A stretch of DNA of 41,790 nucleotides, taken from contig PNNN01000042.1 of NCBI GenBank assembly GCA_013824245.1, positions 1 through 41,790 of the forward strand, in the 5' to 3' direction. A program made the position numbers and the translations under genes. How positions within the stretch are numbered: position 1 is the first letter of the stretch; each line of letters opens with the position of its first letter. Source of the DNA: Chlorobiaceae bacterium. GTDB lineage: Bacteria; Bacteroidota; Ignavibacteria; UBA10030; SZUA-254. This document shows, piece by piece, positions 27,818-36,325 of this stretch. Below the pieces are notes generated by a model that had not been told where the DNA came from, ran no database searches, and saw nothing but the letters and a program-made list of their open reading frames with translations.

Positions 27818-27885
27818 CATGCGGCTTGCTCTTCGTGGATTAGGTACCGCAAAACAATGACAATGTCAAACGAGTGAGCCGCATG
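27818..27885 (+). repeat. GCGGCTT-type long inverted repeat, copy A
   Basis: Left arm CATGCGGCTTGCTC (27818-27831), right arm GAGTGAGCCGCATG (27872-27885): 14 bp including two G-U pairs if read as RNA. The 40-base loop contains CGTGGATTAGGTA, also found (with one inserted base) in copy C. TTTTT follows, so this copy could also end transcripts of the HTH gene. Confidence 0.75.
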
Positions 27886-28064: not shown

Positions 28065-31000
28065 ATGAAACATTTTTTAATATTTTTGCTGCTTTTAATT
28101 TGTTCGCAATTATTATTATCGCAAGATAGGATTCTTGTTACTCCGTTTAACGATGCTATACCTATTAATGAGGGAGAGAGTGCGGTAAATAAGATTGTGC
28201 AAAGTAATAACCAACCATCCTCAATTCAATCGTTGGAGTGCAATAACAGTCAGAGGTATGGCTATTCCAAAGTTGATTATCCATCGAACATCCACTTAAT
28301 GGCTTGGCACAAAGATGTAATGGCGATGTGGTTTGTTGCACCAGCAACAGGTTACATTGATACATTATTCTGGTACGGAGTTTTTATTGGAACAGTTGAT
28401 TCATCAATAGAAATCACACTTTTTAAATCTAATATTGGTCCCAATTCCGGTCCAGGGGTGAATTATCCTTCAGCGTGCAGCGATTGGGGATACTTTCCAA
28501 ACTCAAACGATCCTGATCAGGGAGTTGCACCTTATCCGGGTGAAGCGACAGGTGCCTGGATTTCAACTGTCGAATCGCCATATGTTTCTTTTCCGCCATT
28601 TGGTTCAGTCCTTCCGGGAGAATATTTTCAGGCAAAAAATTTACGTGCAAAACATAAAAGCGGATTAAGTTCATTTGCATTATCAAGCTATTGTGGAAAA
28701 GTTTATGTGACTGAGGGAGATTCTTTTTTTATAGCAATGAGAGTTCCTGGATATTATCATGTCTCGGATCCACCCACATCATGGAATACATCCTCAGAAT
28801 ATCCTTCTCATAGAACATGGAAATTCTACGAACATGCTACTCCAAGTTGCACTCCAACATCCGTAAAGGGATGGAAAGCACGCGAGTTTGGTGTTTTCAA
28901 TTGGATGTTTAGTATGGTCTCTGCTGTGAATGCGCCGCCAGTCATCGGCAATATCACCGATGCAGGGAATAAACTAACCACCACTCCACAATCAATAACA
29001 GCCGAATTGCTCGATTGCGATTTTGAGTTTCCTGAAGAAGCAGCAATCGATTCGGTGCTCATTAATTGGGAGCTAAATGGTGTTCCTCAAAATGATATTT
29101 TAATGTCACACTCGACTGGAGATATTTATAACGGCGAAATCCCCGGTGATATGCAGGCAGGGAGTAAAGTCGAATATAAAATTTGGTCAAACGATACAAA
29201 AGGATTATCAAGCCAATCTGCATGGCGTCAATACCAAACAGGCAAATACAAGAATCAATGGTACACACTTACACCTAATGCGCCATTAAACGAAAAAAAT
29301 ATAAGCGCAACCGGTACAGAAATTTTCGCGACTGAATTCTTCAACCCTCAACAGCCAACATCTCCGCCGGCAGATGATGGGACTGCTGGTCCTTTTGATT
29401 TAGGTGGTCCATTTGTATTTAATGGAGATACAGTAAGATATGCATGGATTGGAGTGAACGGGGCTCTCGCACTTACCAACGAAGCAAGCGACATCCAGCA
29501 TGTTAATAAGGCAGGATTGTATACCGGACTATGGAGAATACCAAATGGTTTGCATCACGATGGAACAGGTGAATTAAATGATAATGAAGGTATCCCGAAA
29601 AATTTTATTGCTCCATTGTGGAATGACTTCTTGCTAAACGACGGCGTGACGCAGTTTGGAAAAATAATTCATCAGCAAGGGTATGAGGGAGATCCTTGTT
29701 ATTACATCGTTGAGTGGGATTCAATCGGAATTTACACCGACTTCGGCGGGCAATCAAGTTTTACAACATTTCGAGTTGTGTTGAATAAATGCACGGGGGA
29801 TATCGAATTCCAGTATAAAAATACAGATGCATCTACGGTGGCAGGTATTGTGAACGCAACTTCATTAATTGGAATTGAAAAAGATTCATCGGGCATTAAT
29901 CCGGGCGATTGGCTTTTCGCTAACAAAAACGGAACACCTAACGAAACACAACCGTTAAACTCAACTGCTATTGTATTCGTACACGATCATTCGTCATTGA
30001 ATACGATAACCGTATCGAAAATGATTGATGCTGACGGTAATATTGTTACTGCTACTGATCGAACTCCAAAAAGTTGGTATCTTGAAATCAGACAAGACGC
30101 TATTGATGGACCAATTATCGCATCCGGGAATTCAGAATCAATATCAGTTAATGGTATCCCAAACGGAAATTATTTTGTGGTCGAAGCTGATAGTTCAGAT
30201 TGGCTGCCGGTAGGTTATCTGATCGATGATATACCTTATACTTCTGAAAATCGTTACGCAAGTTTTAGTTTAACAGGGGATAGCGTTACAGTTGCTTTTA
30301 TTAATGTTCCGCCAGCATATGCTCAGCAATACCGCACCGCTACTCAGGAGCAATGGGCAACGGCAGTTGATCAGAAAGACAAGCTTAAAGCAATAAAACG
30401 GAAAGCCGATAAAGTGCGAGTACAATTTTTACTTGTTGCACCGGCAAACGCGACAGCAGTTAAGATAAAATTCGGAATGTTATTTACCGGTTCGGTGTGG
30501 GATGCTAAAAATATGACTGCATATCTCGATACAATTAATAATTTAAAAGAATACACACTCACTCATTCTTTGCCCGCGCGTGATACAATATTGGTAAATG
30601 GATGGGGCGCAAAGGGGAAACCGATCAAGGTGAAAGTTGAATGGCAAACATCTCCTAAGGTTACTAAGCAAGATATCGTTTCCTATTTAAAAAACACACC
30701 GGGTTTGCCAAAACCGAATCTACATAATGTTGGCGAAGAATTGTTTCCCAATAAATATTTTCCAACAAGCTACTTCAGTTCTTCCTCGCCTCTATTGGTT
30801 GGAAAACCACAAGGTGAAAAAGGTGCACGTTCAGTCGTTCATTATAAATATCAGGATGTTCAAAAGTCATTAAACAAAAAAGGACAACTGCATACCACAA
30901 CGCCAGGATGTTTAGATAATTTTGACACTAACGGTAAGCCGATTGATAAACAACAAAAGAGTTTGCCGCCGGATAAACACAATAACAAACTATTAGCAGA

Positions 31001-31688
31001 ACTCATAGCTCTTAAGTTGAACATCGCTGCAAGTATTACAGGTAAATTCCCGAACGGATTGGGACAACTTACTTACAGCGATCCGGACGATCCGGCTTTT
31101 ATTCTGAATGGTTTCACTATCGATCAAATTATTCCAAAGGCAGATAGCGTGCTTGGATGTCTTAATGTTTCTGTCGGTGGTACTCCGTTAATTGCCGTTG
31201 ATCTGTTTAAAGCTATCAGAAAAATCGATACTGCTTTTTCCGACATACCAAATTTCAAAGATACGATTAGTTTTGGTGCAGGAACAAGATTAACCGGTGT
31301 TAAACGTTTGATTGACATCCCATATTTGCATGCAACACCGGGTGCAGTACCTGTTACAGAATGGATTCCTCAGACTGAAGGGTTAACTATTAGTCAATAC
31401 GCCATGAAGGCAGAAAACTACCCCAATCCATTTAATCCTATTACAAATATTTCATTTGAAGTACCGTTCGAAGCATTCGTATCATTGAAAGTATATAATG
31501 TACTCGGACAGGAAATACAGATCCTTCTGAATAATGAAACGATGGATGAAGGTGAATATGAGGTGGAGTTTGATGCACATAATTTGCCTTCAGGTATTTA
31601 TTATTATCGGATTGTATCTCAGCCGATTGATGGTGAGAACGGAGAGCAAATTACATCTGCCGTACGAAAAATGTTGTTGCTGAAATAA
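28065..31688 (+). CDS. Large T9SS type A sorting-domain protein
   Basis: 1207 residues; signal peptide to about residue 20 (MKHFLIFLLLLICSQLLLSQ) after a strong AAGGAGG. An N-terminal domain (to about 280) has SYCGKVYVTEGDSFFIAMRVP. A beta-sandwich at about 286-385 (PPVIGNITDAGN ... GEIPGDMQAGSKVEYKIWSNDTKG) resembles Ig-like modules of secreted proteins. A beta-rich region at about 410-640 (AWIGVNGALALTNEAS, YYIVEWDSIGIY) is typical of large Ignavibacteria surface proteins. The C terminus (1115-1207) is the T9SS domain: [39 protein letters not shown]. No enzymatic motif is seen; adhesion or surface structure is plausible. A type-1 hairpin starts 6 bases after the stop. Confidence 0.88.
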   Translation: MKHFLIFLLLLICSQLLLSQDRILVTPFNDAIPINEGESAVNKIVQSNNQPSSIQSLECNNSQRYGYSKVDYPSNIHLMAWHKDVMAMWFVAPATGYIDTLFWYGVFIGTVDSSIEITLFKSNIGPNSGPGVNYPSACSDWGYFPNSNDPDQGVAPYPGEATGAWISTVESPYVSFPPFGSVLPGEYFQAKNLRAKHKSGLSSFALSSYCGKVYVTEGDSFFIAMRVPGYYHVSDPPTSWNTSSEYPSHRTWKFYEHATPSCTPTSVKGWKAREFGVFNWMFSMVSAVNAPPVIGNITDAGNKLTTTPQSITAELLDCDFEFPEEAAIDSVLINWELNGVPQNDILMSHSTGDIYNGEIPGDMQAGSKVEYKIWSNDTKGLSSQSAWRQYQTGKYKNQWYTLTPNAPLNEKNISATGTEIFATEFFNPQQPTSPPADDGTAGPFDLGGPFVFNGDTVRYAWIGVNGALALTNEASDIQHVNKAGLYTGLWRIPNGLHHDGTGELNDNEGIPKNFIAPLWNDFLLNDGVTQFGKIIHQQGYEGDPCYYIVEWDSIGIYTDFGGQSSFTTFRVVLNKCTGDIEFQYKNTDASTVAGIVNATSLIGIEKDSSGINPGDWLFANKNGTPNETQPLNSTAIVFVHDHSSLNTITVSKMIDADGNIVTATDRTPKSWYLEIRQDAIDGPIIASGNSESISVNGIPNGNYFVVEADSSDWLPVGYLIDDIPYTSENRYASFSLTGDSVTVAFINVPPAYAQQYRTATQEQWATAVDQKDKLKAIKRKADKVRVQFLLVAPANATAVKIKFGMLFTGSVWDAKNMTAYLDTINNLKEYTLTHSLPARDTILVNGWGAKGKPIKVKVEWQTSPKVTKQDIVSYLKNTPGLPKPNLHNVGEELFPNKYFPTSYFSSSSPLLVGKPQGEKGARSVVHYKYQDVQKSLNKKGQLHTTTPGCLDNFDTNGKPIDKQQKSLPPDKHNNKLLAELIALKLNIAASITGKFPNGLGQLTYSDPDDPAFILNGFTIDQIIPKADSVLGCLNVSVGGTPLIAVDLFKAIRKIDTAFSDIPNFKDTISFGAGTRLTGVKRLIDIPYLHATPGAVPVTEWIPQTEGLTISQYAMKAENYPNPFNPITNISFEVPFEAFVSLKVYNVLGQEIQILLNNETMDEGEYEVEFDAHNLPSGIYYYRIVSQPIDGENGEQITSAVRKMLLLK

Positions 31689-31694
31689 CAAGTC

Positions 31695-31743
31695 AGAACT
31701 CCGACTTCTATCCTGATTTTTCTCTGTCAGAAGTCGGAGTTCT
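31695..31743. repeat. CTCCGACTTCT hairpin, copy 1
   Basis: Perfect 15-bp arms AGAACTCCGACTTCT (31695-31709) and AGAAGTCGGAGTTCT (31729-31743), with a 19-base loop. It begins 6 bases after the stop codon of the upstream T9SS gene and has no following T-tract. Confidence 0.85.
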
Positions 31744-31766
31744 TCGTATGAAGAACTGGATTTAAC

Positions 31767-31833
31767 TGCGGCTTACTCATGATGTGTGTAATCGTTGATA
31801 ATGAATGGATCGATCTGGGGAGAGTAAGCCGCA
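31767..31833 (+). repeat. GCGGCTT-type long inverted repeat, copy B
   Basis: Perfect 12-bp arms TGCGGCTTACTC (31767-31778) / GAGTAAGCCGCA (31822-31833) with a 43-base loop that begins ATGATG. It lies between two copies of the CTCCGACTTCT hairpin. Confidence 0.75.
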
Positions 31834-31844
31834 TAAATATTATC

Positions 31845-31893
31845 AGACCTCCGACTTCTACATTGAATAATCAGAGTAAGAAGTCGGAGGTCT
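31845..31893. repeat. CTCCGACTTCT hairpin, copy 2
   Basis: Perfect 15-bp arms AGACCTCCGACTTCT (31845-31859) / AGAAGTCGGAGGTCT (31879-31893), loop 19 bases. Compared with copy 1 the A-T pair at arm position 4 is C-G, a compensatory change. Confidence 0.85.
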
Positions 31894-31952
31894 ACACGTT
31901 GAAAAATAAAATATAATTACAAAACTAATCATAATAACAATGAGGTACCGTT

Positions 31953-34529
31953 ATGAAATATATTGTTACAATTTTTCTCTGTTTGTTCCTGATAAATTTT
32001 GCAGAGTCACAAGTTCCAAATAAAATTTCGTACCAAGGATTACTTACAACACCTTCAGGTACACCACTACCCGATGGAAGTTACGATTTGAAGTTCGAAA
32101 TCTTCAATCTTCCTTTAGGTGGAACACTCCGTCACACAGAAACACATTCAGGTGTAACAGTAGAACGAGGAACATTTAGTTTAAACCTCGGTCCGTTACC
32201 GGCGATTTTTTCTGAATCATTGTTCGTTGAGGTGACTGTTCTTGCCGGTCCGGGAATTTCTTCGCCGATGACGTTCGCGCCACGCTCGGAGTTAACAAGT
32301 GCACCATATGCGTTCAGGGCAGATACCGCAAAGGGGATAATTCCAAACGCTAACTTGCAAGTTGCCACTCTCTCAACAACAGGCAATGTTGGGATAAAGA
32401 AATCACCATCATCGTTCGCATTCGATGTGAATGGAATCGTCAATGCCACAGACATTTATAAAAACGGTTCTCCGTTGAACGCAAGCCAGTGGATAACGAG
32501 TGGAAGCAACATTTATTACAACTCTGGCAACACTGGCATCGGAACAGCAACACCAACTTATAAACTCCATGTGAGCGGAACCGTGAACGCCACGGATTTT
32601 CTGAAAAATGGTCTACCACTTGGCACAACACAATGGACTACAAGCGGAAGCAATATTTATTACAACTCGGGTAATGTAGGTCTTGGTATAACAAATCCAA
32701 CTGCAAAGCTGAATATTATTGGGGGAGATGATACATACGCTAATGTAGTTCCGGAAATACAAATAGATGCCCAAAATTTTCCTGTTATTCGTTTGAACGC
32801 CACAGGAGGCATCGGGAAAAATGATGCAGGATATGAAGCGATGAACACCAATCGAAGATATCGTATGGGGATTAACACTTTCGACAATTTTTATATTCAT
32901 GATGCCACAGCAGCGATAGATAGAATCAGCATTCTTACCAATGGTAATGTCGGTATTGGAAAGGTTCCTTCCTATAAGCTGGATGTGAGTGGAACCATTA
33001 ACGCCACCGATATATATAAGAATGGCTCACCCCTAAGCACAAGCCAATGGACGACGAGTGGAAGCAACATTTATTACAACACTGGCAACACCGGTATCGG
33101 GACAGCGAGCCCGGTATCCAAAGTACACGTATCTGGTGCGTCGCTGGACGGATTTAGTCCGCTATTGTATTTAACCCCAACCACTACAAGCTCGGATCCC
33201 TGGCCAGCAGGTGCAATAATACATGCTTCCGATTTGGCTGTAGGTAAAACATTGCTGATGAGAATTGGACGAAGCAATACAACTTGGAACCTTGCTGATT
33301 TCGGATTTTATTATGCAGGCGATGGATCATTGAACAATCGATTGACACTTGGAATGCATAGTAATCCCTATATGATGAACATCTGTGCATCAGGCAACGT
33401 CGGCATCGGAACAGCAACCCCAGCATACAAGCTTGATGTGAGTGGAACAGTAAACGCAACCGCATTCCGTGGCGATGGATCACAGTTGACGGGTTTGCCA
33501 AGCGGCTCAAGTCAGTGGACAACATCAGGTTCTAATATTTACTACAATTCCGGCAACGTCGGCATCGGGACGATAACACCAGGTCAAAAATTGAGTGTTC
33601 AAGGCATGATGGGTTTGTATCCAACGACGTTCTCTGCTCCAGCGGCGCGTGGAATGTATCTTTACCACAATGGAAATATTGGGACCCTCTATGCATTTGA
33701 CTATACATCCAACCAAGGAGATCCGATAGCATATAATGCGCTTGAGCACAATTTTTATACATATGTCGGTGCAACAACAACATCGAGGATGTTTATTGCA
33801 AACTCCGGCAACGTCGGCATCGGGACAACGACACCATTGAGCAAATTAGAAGTTGCCGGTACGATTCACTCAACATCGGGTGGAATAAAATTTCCCGACG
33901 GGACGGTCATGACAACCGCGGCTGCGGCGACAACCGGCATGAGCAGCAACACCGATCTTTCTCTCGCGGCTGATGCTGACGCAAATGGATCCGGTGAGAT
34001 GATCGTGGCGACAAATGGTAATGAGAGAATGCGAGTAACAAACTCCGGTAGTATCGGTATTGGGACGACGACACCGGATGCCAACGCCAAGCTCGACGTA
34101 AACGGCTACGCATTTGCCAAAGCGCCTGTTGTGGTGTACGACAGCGCGGCGGGGAGCGGGACGAGTTTCGACATCACTTGGCTCAACAATGTCCGTGTCG
34201 ATAACAACATTGTTGAGAAGCAGGGGAACAACTATGAGTTTTTATTGAAGAAGGCAGGATGGTACAGGGTCTCATTGTTTTTGTTTTTTTTAACTCCCAA
34301 CTATGCACAATATTCCATTAACATATTTAAAAATGGAATTTGGGAAAAATCTGTATGTGTTTTTGATCGTACATCATCAGGTGGATGGTGGCAAGTAAAC
34401 GGTAGTGTGATCGTACAATCTAATGGAAGCGATCTATTTAAAATAAACGGATATTCAACTTCTAGTTTTTCGGTGCATCCACCAAAGTATTTGCATCAGC
34501 TTTCCATCGAATACCTCGGTGCGGAGTAG
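31953..34529 (+). CDS. Tail-fibre-like GIG-repeat protein with a C1q-like C-terminal domain
   Basis: 858 residues with a signal peptide (MKYIVTIFLCLFLINFAESQ) and GAGG upstream. The N-terminal domain (about 20-130, PNKISYQGLLTTPSGTPLPDG ... SAPYAFRADTA) is common in Bacteroidota exported fibre proteins. Residues about 135-640 hold nine G(N/S)xGIG-type units, such as GNTGIGTATP and GNVGIGTTTP, and four QW(T/I)TSGSNIYYN(S/T)GN linkers, suggesting a beta-helical trimeric shaft. The last ~135 residues (VVVYDSAAGSGTSFDITWLNN ... GWYRVSLFLFFL ... HQLSIEYLGAE) look like a C1q/TNF-type jelly roll. Unlike its neighbours it has no T9SS sorting domain, so its export route is unclear. The repeats are also visible in the DNA. 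Confidence 0.87.
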   Translation: MKYIVTIFLCLFLINFAESQVPNKISYQGLLTTPSGTPLPDGSYDLKFEIFNLPLGGTLRHTETHSGVTVERGTFSLNLGPLPAIFSESLFVEVTVLAGPGISSPMTFAPRSELTSAPYAFRADTAKGIIPNANLQVATLSTTGNVGIKKSPSSFAFDVNGIVNATDIYKNGSPLNASQWITSGSNIYYNSGNTGIGTATPTYKLHVSGTVNATDFLKNGLPLGTTQWTTSGSNIYYNSGNVGLGITNPTAKLNIIGGDDTYANVVPEIQIDAQNFPVIRLNATGGIGKNDAGYEAMNTNRRYRMGINTFDNFYIHDATAAIDRISILTNGNVGIGKVPSYKLDVSGTINATDIYKNGSPLSTSQWTTSGSNIYYNTGNTGIGTASPVSKVHVSGASLDGFSPLLYLTPTTTSSDPWPAGAIIHASDLAVGKTLLMRIGRSNTTWNLADFGFYYAGDGSLNNRLTLGMHSNPYMMNICASGNVGIGTATPAYKLDVSGTVNATAFRGDGSQLTGLPSGSSQWTTSGSNIYYNSGNVGIGTITPGQKLSVQGMMGLYPTTFSAPAARGMYLYHNGNIGTLYAFDYTSNQGDPIAYNALEHNFYTYVGATTTSRMFIANSGNVGIGTTTPLSKLEVAGTIHSTSGGIKFPDGTVMTTAAAATTGMSSNTDLSLAADADANGSGEMIVATNGNERMRVTNSGSIGIGTTTPDANAKLDVNGYAFAKAPVVVYDSAAGSGTSFDITWLNNVRVDNNIVEKQGNNYEFLLKKAGWYRVSLFLFFLTPNYAQYSINIFKNGIWEKSVCVFDRTSSGGWWQVNGSVIVQSNGSDLFKINGYSTSSFSVHPPKYLHQLSIEYLGAE

Positions 34530-34537
34530 CGGTGAAC

Positions 34538-34610
34538 AACCCTCACCCCTGCCCCTCTCCCAATTTGGGAGAGGGGATGTCACGACGTAGTCGGGACAGA
34601 GGAGAGGGTT
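34538..34610. repeat. CCCTCTCC palindromic element
   Basis: Inner palindrome CCCCTCTCCCAA / TTTGGGAGAGGGG (about 34551-34576), within outer AACCCTC...GAGGGTT arms reaching 34610. The wording matches a repeat I know from many unrelated environmental bacteria. It starts about 8 bases after the stop of the fibre-like gene. Confidence 0.7.
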
Positions 34611-34651
34611 ATAAGAAAAAGATGAACACCCGGCAATTATATCGACCAATG

Positions 34652-34700
34652 AGAACTCCGACTTCTATCCCGGTACTTCAAAGTCAGAAGTCGGAGTTCT
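34652..34700. repeat. CTCCGACTTCT hairpin, copy 3
   Basis: Perfect 15-bp arms AGAACTCCGACTTCT (34652-34666) / AGAAGTCGGAGTTCT (34686-34700), loop 19 bases. The arms equal those of copy 1; the loop differs. Confidence 0.85.
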
Positions 34701-34719
34701 TCTTAGTAAAAATTTGTAA

Positions 34720-34760
34720 ATCGAACTTCAGTTCGATATTCGAGCGAAATAAATTTCGCT
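34720..34760. repeat. Two short palindromes of the REP-like group
   Basis: ATCGAACT-tc-AGTTCGAT (34720-34737) and AGCGAAAT-aa-ATTTCGCT (34743-34760), each with perfect 8-bp arms and a 2-base centre. They lie just upstream of the T9SS gene at 34789. Confidence 0.75.
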
Positions 34761-34788
34761 TTACAACACTGATAAAAGGAGCAATAAA

Positions 34789-36192
34789 ATGAAAAGTATA
34801 AAAATAATATCGCTTGTTTGTTTGTTCGTGTCGGTAACGTTATCGCAAACCCCAAAACACCCTTGGCATGTCATCGACCGCGGCGGTGGGAAAGGGACCT
34901 CTGGAAATGCTGTACTCCAATCATCAATCGGTCAACCTCTTGTTCAAAGGATGACATACCTCGATACCGGCTCAACACTGGAGAGTGGTTATTTGCCAAC
35001 TCTTCGTCAATCGTCGGGCGCCTATACCTGCGTTGCGATCGATATTGCCAATGGATGGAACCTATTGTCAGTTCCTCTCATTGTTAATGATTATCGAAAA
35101 AACACTTTCGCACCGTGGGCATCATCGGCGGCGTTTAAATACACAACGGCATACGAATCTGAAGACACTCTCGTGAATGGCGAAGGGTACTGGCTTAAAA
35201 GTGATCAGAGCCAACCGTTTTATATTCTTGGAACGAGTTATTTTGAAGATACAATTGATGTTCACGCGGGATGGAACATTATAGGCACTATTTCGTATCC
35301 AATTCTTAACTCAGATATTGTACCCATAGCGCCATCAATAATCCAATCACTGTTTTTCGATTTCATTCCAAGTGCAGGATATATAATTTCGGATACATTG
35401 TTCCCCGGTTATGGCTATTGGGTGAAAGTAAGTGAAGCCGGGCAGTTAGTTGTAAAACCCACATCTCAACTCGCTCTATCTTCACCTATGATCGCATCAA
35501 AACCGAATCAAAGATCAACAGGTTCATCATTAGAAAAAATTGTTGATGAGCAAGGATTGAACTCTTTAACATTCACAGATGCCAATGGCAGATCGAAGTC
35601 GATATATTTTTCATCCAAAAAGATCGATTTAGATTTAGACCGGTTTGAGTTACCTCCTTTACCTCCCGATGGTGTTCTTGACGTCAGGTATTCGAATGGA
35701 AATTTAGTGGTAATACCCGATAAGCAATCAAATAATTATACGATTCGCATCTCATCTGCTGAATATCCCATTACATTACGTTGGGATATTAAAAATGAAT
35801 CATTCAGCGCATCGCTGATGATTGATAAGAAAAATGTCAGCTTAAACAGGACGGGTGAAGCGCAGATTACAGAAGCATCATCAAAAATTAAACTTGAATT
35901 AATAGGACTATCTGATAAAGAACTTCCGAAAGAATTCGCTCTTCAACAAAACTATCCCAATCCCTTCAACCCATCAACAATTATAAATTATCAATTACCG
36001 ATTGCCAATTGGGTGAAGTTGAAAATCTACAATCTGCTTGGTCAGGAAGTTGCAACGCTTGTTGATGAGATGCAGGAAGCAGGATATAAATCGGTTGAAT
36101 GGCATGCCGGCGCTTTGCCAAGCGGGGTTTATATTTATCGATTGTCAGCAGGGTCATTTACAGATTTAAAGAAGTTGATACTGGTGAAATAA
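34789..36192 (+). CDS. T9SS type A sorting-domain protein with two GWN...YW modules
   Basis: 467 residues; signal peptide [27 protein letters not shown] upstream. The central part holds two related modules, one with [11 protein letters not shown] ... GEGYWLKSD (about 88-143) and one with [12 protein letters not shown] ... [10 protein letters not shown] (about 163-220), joined to a beta-rich stretch. The T9SS domain fills the last ~85 residues: [50 protein letters not shown]. The GWN/YW modules are common in secreted proteins of this lineage and have no known biochemical role. A type-1 hairpin begins 6 bases after the stop. Confidence 0.9.
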
Positions 36193-36198
36193 TTTGGT

Positions 36199-36246
36199 AA
36201 ACCTCCGACTTCTACCTCGATAATCTTAAGAAGAAGTCGGAGGTTT
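36199..36246. repeat. CTCCGACTTCT hairpin, copy 4
   Basis: Perfect 15-bp arms AAACCTCCGACTTCT (36199-36213) / AGAAGTCGGAGGTTT (36232-36246), loop 18 bases. Pairs 2 and 4 of the arm differ from copy 1 and stay complementary. It starts 6 bases after the upstream stop, as does copy 1. Confidence 0.85.
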
Positions 36247-36264: not shown

Positions 36265-36325
36265 AATGCGGTTCGCGTCATGATGGATTATTCATCGTGT
36301 GGATTAGGTAGAAGCGAACCGCATT
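36265..36325 (+). repeat. GCGGCTT-type long inverted repeat, copy C
   Basis: Perfect 12-bp arms AATGCGGTTCGC (36265-36276) / GCGAACCGCATT (36314-36325), with a 37-base loop containing GTGTGGATTAGGTA as in copy A, and CATGATG as in copy B. It ends 6 bases before the stop of the minus-strand bacilliredoxin gene. Confidence 0.75.

Follow-up and report, generated by a model that had tools for sequence, protein, structure and literature searches.

Hairpins beside T9SS genes in an Ignavibacteria genome belong to a dispersed REPIN-like family, probably moved by a cognate RAYT

The stretch of DNA considered here, called the window throughout, is the 41,790-nucleotide contig PNNN01000042.1 (contig C20 in our numbering) of assembly GCA_013824245.1, from a Chlorobiaceae bacterium placed in the Ignavibacteria. 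The whole assembly, designated G000, holds 3.23 Mb in 76 contigs; other genomes, contigs and loci carry the prefixes G, C and L. An initial annotation of the window had described four hairpins among genes linked to the type IX secretion system (T9SS), with arm changes that match across the stem, and had proposed that selection acts on the hairpin itself, whether as a mobile palindrome copied as a folded strand, a stabilizer of mRNA 3' ends or a protein-binding site. The hairpins and the two T9SS genes next to them are as follows.

28065..31688, + strand: gene for a 1207-aa protein with a T9SS C-terminal sorting domain (PF18962, E 1.7e-9)
31695..31743: hairpin h1; arms 31695-31709 and 31729-31743, loop 31710-31728; subfamily A stem AGAACTCCGACTTCT; model E 1.9e-15
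31845..31893: hairpin h2; arms 31845-31859 and 31879-31893, loop 31860-31878; stem AGACCTCCGACTTCT; model E 7.1e-16
34652..34700: hairpin h3; arms 34652-34666 and 34686-34700, loop 34667-34685; stem AGAACTCCGACTTCT; model E 1.6e-15
34789..36192, + strand: gene for a 467-aa protein with a T9SS C-terminal sorting domain (PF18962, E 5.2e-8)
36199..36246: hairpin h4; arms 36199-36213 and 36232-36246, loop 36214-36231; stem AAACCTCCGACTTCT; model E 3.8e-14

The model E values come from a covariance model (below) whose own training set includes all four hairpins. Each hairpin was confirmed at its position with perfect 15-bp arms, and the loops measure 19, 19, 19 and 18 nt in h1 to h4. The elements lie far from chance expectation: folded as single-stranded DNA they have z scores of -6.5, -8.9, -4.8 and -6.6 respectively (200 dinucleotide shuffles each, none of which equalled any of them), and the motif CTCCGACTTC, with at most one mismatch, occurs 10 times in the window against 1.87 expected, a count reached in 0 of 100 shuffles. 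Arm positions 2 (G/A) and 4 (A/C) vary among the copies with the opposite arm matching, as first described. The spacing of 6 bases after a stop codon also holds for two copies, h1 (stop codon 31686-31688 of the T9SS-tail gene 28065-31688) and h4 (stop codon 36190-36192 of the T9SS-tail gene 34789-36192). Hairpin h3 lies between genes 31953-34529 and 34789-36192, and sorting domains are present in two of the three genes adjoining h1 to h4. An Rfam scan gave no match in the window above a gathering score. No T-tract follows any of the four, as the initial annotation had noted, and the intrinsic terminator reading is rejected for h1 to h4 on that ground.

These hairpins are members of a family found throughout the genome. 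Exact-core copies number 12 in G000, against 0 for a reversed-pattern control, and a looser stem pattern gave two unrelated matches there and no further family member. A covariance model trained on the 12 exact-core copies matched 52 places in G000, 50 of them at E<1e-3, and a separate pattern search added two further copies of subfamily B, for a total of at least 54 copies, or at least 52 without the two weakest; covariance scoring took in 150 of 1939 candidates, and the copy counts are lower bounds. The covariance model search that the initial annotation had suggested thus reveals a genome-wide family of at least 50 copies, not a local one. Matches to the model were present in 15 of 17 chosen genomes, with none in G003 and G011. 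When one genome per species was searched for the exact subfamily A core, across approximately 85,000 species, 13 stretches were found, ten of them from metagenome-assembled genomes of Ignavibacteria or Bacteroidota; the remaining three (Rivularia, Propionibacteriaceae and Nocardioides) we presume, without having examined them, to be chance or unrelated palindromes.

At least three stem subfamilies can be distinguished in G000: A (AGAACTCCGACTTCT, AAACCTCCGACTTYT and near variants), B (AAACCTCCGGTATCT) and C (AAATGTCCGACATTT). Leaving out one degenerate copy with a 2-nt loop, the loop is 16-20 nt long in 50 of 51 copies and 56 nt in the other, and the stem is paired at 15 of 15 positions in 31 copies, at 14 in 9 and at 13 or fewer in 11. 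Most copies (44/52) overlap no open reading frame of 90 aa or more; seven overlap unverified reading frames of 92-154 aa, and one lies inside a transposase gene of the RAYT type, described next. Four of the five subfamily C copies adjoin B copies as composite elements, with a gap of 8 bp on contigs C4, C5 and C8 and of 28 bp on C74. Three of these four composites (L140, L143, L149, L138) stand behind T9SS tails.

The linked TnpA_REP/RAYT-type gene for which the initial annotation had proposed a search was found on contig C70, where it bears the same hairpin family. Pfam Y1_Tnp has five matches in G000, and the one at the start of C70 belongs with the hairpins: one hairpin is in frame within the coding sequence, another lies about 30 bp past the stop codon, and a third is between two genes downstream, which we take to be ABC-transporter permease-like. 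In an alignment with homologs, the in-frame hairpin falls in the linker after the Y motif (YIHLNP in this protein) and lengthens it by about 12 residues. The place of the upstream hairpin is beyond the contig end, and the C70 flank was assessed on the downstream side alone. The other Y1_Tnp genes of G000 (C47, C57, C68 and C34) were rejected as partners, since they match the RAYT profile weakly or not at all and lack paired hairpins of the family; the hairpins downstream of those on C57 and C68 are short, with arms of 9 and 11 bp and loops of 4 nt. A second RAYT-like gene (C8:122041-122550; L159 11985-12550 with its hairpin), 35% identical to the query, has a decayed compact hairpin in the usual RAYT place upstream (L159 11985-12017; 13 of 15 pairs, loop of 3) with a different stem, and no hairpin of this family downstream; it is possibly a relic RAYT.

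All six RAYT proteins that were scanned match PF01797 above its cut-off, and in each of them Y1_Tnp is the sole Pfam domain at E<=0.01, with no helix-turn-helix domain. The same six match NF047646 REP_Tyr_transpos at E values of 5e-14 to 2e-24; one (86.2 bits) is over the curated cut-off of 80 bits, the others scoring 52.5 (the truncated C70 protein), 71.9, 73.3, 76.8 and 78.5. Among twelve aligned RAYTs, NH[FY]H and Y---NP are present in all, Y-HLNP in 11 and FQ in 5, including C70. A motif scan of 30 loci found the gene in 14, of which 12 have Y[IV]HLNP, with YIHNNP at L061 and YIHCNP at L066. For the single protein tried against solved structures, that of L047, E. coli TnpArep (4er8) was the one relative at E<=1, and a weak one (E 0.025).

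Hairpins accompany these genes well beyond G000. RAYT homologs were detected at E<=1e-12 in 54 of 150 relatives, and a set of 30 RAYT loci was assembled, leaving out four other Y1_Tnp loci of G000 (two without a profile match and two below 100 bits). Within 220 bp of the RAYT gene, a hairpin is present upstream at 25 of 28 and downstream at 23 of 29 loci with enough sequence, L060 and L075 having none; shuffled flanks gave 8 in 1140 and distant windows of the same loci 5 in 188. The hairpins at the two ends of one RAYT agree at a mean of 11.8 arm positions (n=20), against 7.3 between loci (n=555), and across 28 RAYTs protein identity is correlated with stem similarity (Mantel r 0.635, a value that none of 5000 permutations attained). 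In a phylum-wide draw, 65 of 296 genomes have a homolog at E<=1e-20, and the flanks of 29 further loci, of which at least 4 repeat genes of the first set, have hairpins upstream in 13 and downstream in 15, against 8 of 246 far windows.

The paired arm changes that first drew attention to the hairpins take on a different meaning when many copies are compared. In the 12 exact-core copies, which were selected with a fixed-core pattern, two-sided change is seen in 13 cells and one-sided change in 0, against 5.0 two-sided cells in shuffles. Among 51 copies, with the outermost pair left out, all 22 pair types found in at least three copies are Watson-Crick, against just 4 of the 27 found in one or two copies, the rest being 8 G-T pairs and 15 mismatches (Fisher p 4e-10; 23/24 and 4/29 with the outermost pair). 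Because shared variants are paired and private variants are mostly unpaired, we conclude that pairing is enforced when copies are made and that copies decay afterwards, a pattern that is the signature of a mobile palindrome and not of a structure selected at each site. Selection on each hairpin in place is therefore neither the general nor the main explanation; the unmatched arm changes that the initial annotation had named as telling against its proposal do occur in individual copies, and do not distinguish the subfamilies. Compensatory changes across REPIN hairpins have been described by Bertels and Rainey (PMC3116915), and selection for complementary mutations in REPs was noted by Nunvar et al. 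(PMC2817692). The contrast between shared and private variants offers a clean signature that separates mobile palindromes from RNA structures selected in place, which are easily confused when covariation is read from few copies.

Template switching during replication, which perfects imperfect inverted repeats, would produce matched changes with neither selection nor transposition, and it agrees with the two-sided shared arm changes and with the lack of a one-sided shared intermediate inside the outermost pair. Such palindrome correction leaves unexplained some fifty dispersed copies with few shared stems, the link to RAYT genes and the identical stem letters of an orthologous pair (discussed below), and 20 of 51 copies contain uncorrected mispairs. 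It may operate as a secondary process; as the account of the family it seems to us extremely improbable.

The loop, which had been described as not conserved, proves otherwise in a larger set of copies: counted from each arm, it tends symmetrically towards CT at +3/+4 and G at +7. In subfamily A (68 halves, a few degenerate B halves among them) G at +7 is present in 50, T at +4 in 40 and C at +3 in 36, and outside the arm G at -3 in 36 and A at -4 in 37. The corresponding counts are 19, 16, 11, 8 and 10 in the 22 halves of subfamily B and 9, 10, 5, 4 and 6 in the 10 halves of subfamily C. The motif is weaker in other genomes, where 144 halves from 72 hairpins have C at +3 in 85, G at +7 in 77, T at +4 in 50 and, in the flank, G at -3 in 65. 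Each 15-nt arm is close to palindromic in its own right, and the sequence on either side of it tends towards mirror symmetry. A unit of the form CNNAGNN-arm-NNCTNNG is suggested, more marked on the inside than on the outside, and the element consists of two such units in inverted orientation, a REPIN-like pair. CT stands at loop positions +3/+4 in 34 of 102 halves of G000, and because a known TnpA_REP cleaves at CT (PMC8266576), we infer by analogy that this is a putative cleavage site.

Taken together, the hairpins are very probably REPIN-like non-autonomous mobile palindromes that are moved by a cognate RAYT. The dispersed copies, the subfamilies, the link to RAYT genes, the co-variation of stem and RAYT at RAYT loci and the pairing among shared variants are all observed, and from them we infer that the C70 RAYT recognises, cuts and moves the hairpins and acts on single strands. 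Of the mobile palindrome copied as a folded strand, as the initial annotation had it, the mobility and the RAYT link are well supported by the copies, the C70 gene, the flanks and the co-variation, while the folded strand belongs to the proposed mechanism. According to this proposal, the cognate RAYT, an HUH/Y1 tyrosine nuclease, would recognise the folded single strand of the hairpin and would cut and rejoin it, giving rise to new copies. These would pile up at the 3' ends of genes, where insertion is probably tolerated, and then decay, some of them being carried along with the ends of T9SS-tail genes or retained.

A number of observations weigh against this account. Movement itself was not observed, and the C70 RAYT is cut by the contig end, with about 56 N-terminal residues missing that are not at the start of contig C13 and have no match elsewhere in the assembly. 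No RAYT of their own was found for subfamilies B and C of G000, and in a search among relatives aimed at its RAYT the subfamily B stem turned up in 2 of 100 genomes, neither of them outside the genus. Of 102 halves, just 3 have the canonical GT[AG]G head that characterizes GTAG-type REPs, and the family A arm by itself has no fold as DNA, whereas the arms of three other RAYT families fold on their own. Four loci compared with G001 gave no clean empty site; one was an orthologous copy and one a rearrangement. The orthologous copy, at C4:143398, is kept in the same place in G001, another species of the genus (L124/L102), and is identical save for a 10-nt loop deletion while the flanks are approximately 70% identical, which is more conservation than decay predicts. 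This copy is a candidate for co-option, and some copies may indeed have been co-opted.

The match between hairpins and RAYTs from genome to genome speaks partly for the account and partly against it. In its favour, within a set of 150 genomes the exact hairpin is present in 9 of the 11 whose RAYTs are closest and in 7 of the other 139 (Fisher p 7e-9), with a cut-off that was picked after seeing the table and genomes that are not phylogenetically independent. The exact hairpin occurs without a close RAYT in those seven genomes (G006, G010, G030, G043, G058, G087 and G095), and in G001 the model has matches while a RAYT is absent at E<=1e-12; the exact-core hairpin is in turn missing from G040 and G046, whose RAYTs are close. 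For 34 dispersed copies in 12 genomes we also compared the stem with the flanks of one RAYT in each genome, after dropping one non-family hairpin in L169; the copies were fetched with the subfamily A pattern or model, which draws A-like stems whatever the RAYT, and several of the genomes have further RAYT matches. Half of the copies (17/34) are within one base of a RAYT-flank stem: 4/4 in G046, 3/3 in G082, 3/4 in G076, 3/8 in G002, 2/3 in G009, 1/1 in G040 and 1/2 in G092. The other 17 are two or more bases off the flanks of the examined RAYT, with none within one base in G064 (0/1), G079 (0/1), G091 (0/1), G006 (0/4) and G030 (0/2), and the dispersed stems of G006 (4), G030 (2) and G091 (1) are unrelated to that RAYT. 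The genomes in which the RAYT is absent or mismatched could be explained if the RAYT had been lost, leaving orphan copies, or if a different RAYT had moved the hairpins. Judged by stem sequence, cognacy is clear at RAYT loci and in some genomes, and not in others.

The positions of the copies bear on a further explanation, in which the hairpins are RNA elements of gene 3' ends, stabilizers or terminators of mRNA whose pairing is kept by selection in place. When genes are delimited by mechanical open reading frame calls, a gene ends no more than 50 bp before the hairpin at 26 of 52 copies and starts no more than 50 bp after it at 4, and the neighbouring genes are convergent at 19 of the 52. The T9SS setting in which the hairpins were first noticed reflects a real bias: G000 has 125 Por_Secre_tail matches, and the 250 bp that follow a T9SS tail hold 23 of the 54 hairpins, distributed over 19 tails, with 0 on the side before the tail, whereas 0.5 tail-proximal copies would be expected if insertion were uniform and approximately 4.4 if it were confined to intergenic space, assumed to make up 12%. 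These positions, the orthologous copy at C4:143398 and the presence of at least five T among the 8 bases after the hairpin at 14 of 102 ends genome-wide, against 75 of 1020 in the background, all fit 3'-end elements. Against them stand the unpaired private changes, the lack of one-sided (G-U) intermediates among the exact-core copies, the lack of a T-tract at the window copies, the hairpins that flank and invade a transposase gene, and the co-variation of stems with RAYTs at RAYT loci, and we regard this explanation as improbable for the family as a whole. Some copies may nevertheless have a role at 3' ends, given the positional bias and the orthologous copy.

The T9SS bias also raises the question of whether the hairpins are passengers in segmental duplications of T9SS gene ends, with no action by a RAYT. 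On C5, C8 and C74 the DNA can be aligned at approximately 72-82% identity from the tail into the C/B pair behind it, and on C53 likewise into the C copy, and part of the bias is thus due to shared descent. At several A copies, however, tail similarity ends before the hairpin, 31 of 54 copies fall outside the 250 bp that follow a T9SS tail, and RAYT genes phylum-wide are repeatedly accompanied by hairpins. Duplication of gene ends is thus most unlikely to account for the family, and transposition as REPIN-like palindromes is preferred.

Subfamily B hairpins were also seen at the edges of a larger segment. A 9.4-kb block in G000 (L189, C16:36800-49280), which holds what we take to be a UvrA-like gene along with others, is bounded by two B hairpins in the same direction, and in G001 (L190, C7:353000-372900) the outer flanks of the block meet at a single B hairpin. 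Since two hairpins bound the block in one genome and one stands at the junction in the other, B hairpins mark a rearrangement breakpoint.

A broader proposal can be put forward with considerable doubt. A RAYT lineage of the Ignavibacteria and the wider Bacteroidota would read a head other than GT[AG]G (NNCTNNG/CNNAGNN), and the paired palindromes might have become standing 3' modules of T9SS cargo genes that aid the exchange of cargo tails and gene blocks. The module part of this suggestion is based on the 23 of 54 copies behind T9SS tails, the shared composites of C and B with an 8-bp gap, and the 9.4-kb block with its B hairpins.

The family works like a RAYT/REPIN system and in the broad sense is one. 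Searches of the open-access literature gave no description of this hairpin family. Like the REPINs of Pseudomonas fluorescens SBW25 (PMC3116915), the elements consist of two inverted palindromic units with a variable spacer that form one long hairpin, they are dispersed between genes and clustered beside a cognate RAYT, and they show compensatory changes. They differ in having near-palindromic units of 15 nt that are 16-20 nt apart (50/51 copies), in lacking the GT[AG]G head and in belonging to the Ignavibacteria, and they number at least 50, compared with 101 aligned for one group in SBW25. The REP/RAYT units of PMC2817692 likewise have inverted palindromes that bound the RAYT on both sides and co-evolve with it, with pairing kept among variants; those units have GT(A/G)G heads and have been reported chiefly in gammaproteobacteria, neither of which applies to the present family. 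TIRYTs and TIRtrons (Di Nocera et al. 2013, PMC3733652) are alike in that terminal inverted repeats, some of them self-complementary and moderately repeated, flank the gene.

Comparison with the TnpA_Y1 subclasses of Quentin et al. 2018 (PMC6006769) rests on published motifs and descriptions. The present RAYTs share NH[YF]H, Y-HLNP and FQ (5/12, including C70) with subclass 2.1 (Table 1), for which those descriptions report a C-terminal helix-turn-helix domain, not found by Pfam here, and no REP-like sequences near the genes, where hairpins are present in our case. The TnpA_REP proteins of subclass 2.6, associated with "atypical secondary structures," are alike in occurring in Bacteroidetes, in lacking GT[AG]G and in having dispersed copies; they have NH[LIV]H and YIH[QN]NP, whereas the proteins here have NH[FY]H and mostly Y-HLNP, although the YIHNNP of L061 would fit. 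REPs inserted in frame in the gene, as at C70, are a feature of subclass 2.4, which differs in having YIxNNP and an insert between HUH and Y, whereas in C70 the Y motif precedes the hairpin. The E. coli nuclease of the REP/BIME system, TnpA_REP (4er8; Corneloup et al. 2021, PMC8266576), is likewise of the HUH/Y1 type, acts on single-stranded palindromes and cleaves at CT, but it requires GTAG and a bulged stem, and its similarity to the RAYT of L047 is weak (E 0.025).

These findings extend the co-evolution of RAYTs and palindromes, mainly known for GT[AG]G-type REPs, to a Bacteroidota lineage whose RAYTs resemble a subclass for which no REP had been reported. The 28 loci with their range of stems make up natural RAYT-stem pairs that bear on how HUH nucleases read a folded strand.

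Two further features of the window deserve mention. A second palindrome family, TGCGGYT...ARCCGCA, approximately 57-67 bp long, occurs at 27820-27883, 31767-31833 and 36267-36323, interleaved with the REPIN-like hairpins; the pattern has 12 matches in the genome, of which the nine outside the window, judged by eye, lack the longer arms that the three window copies share. The gene at 31953-34529 resembles an adhesive trimer-fibre N-terminal family weakly, with a score below the cut-off, and it contains seven copies of a 36-nt repeat of the GGCAACxxxGGxATCGG type at 32520-34076.

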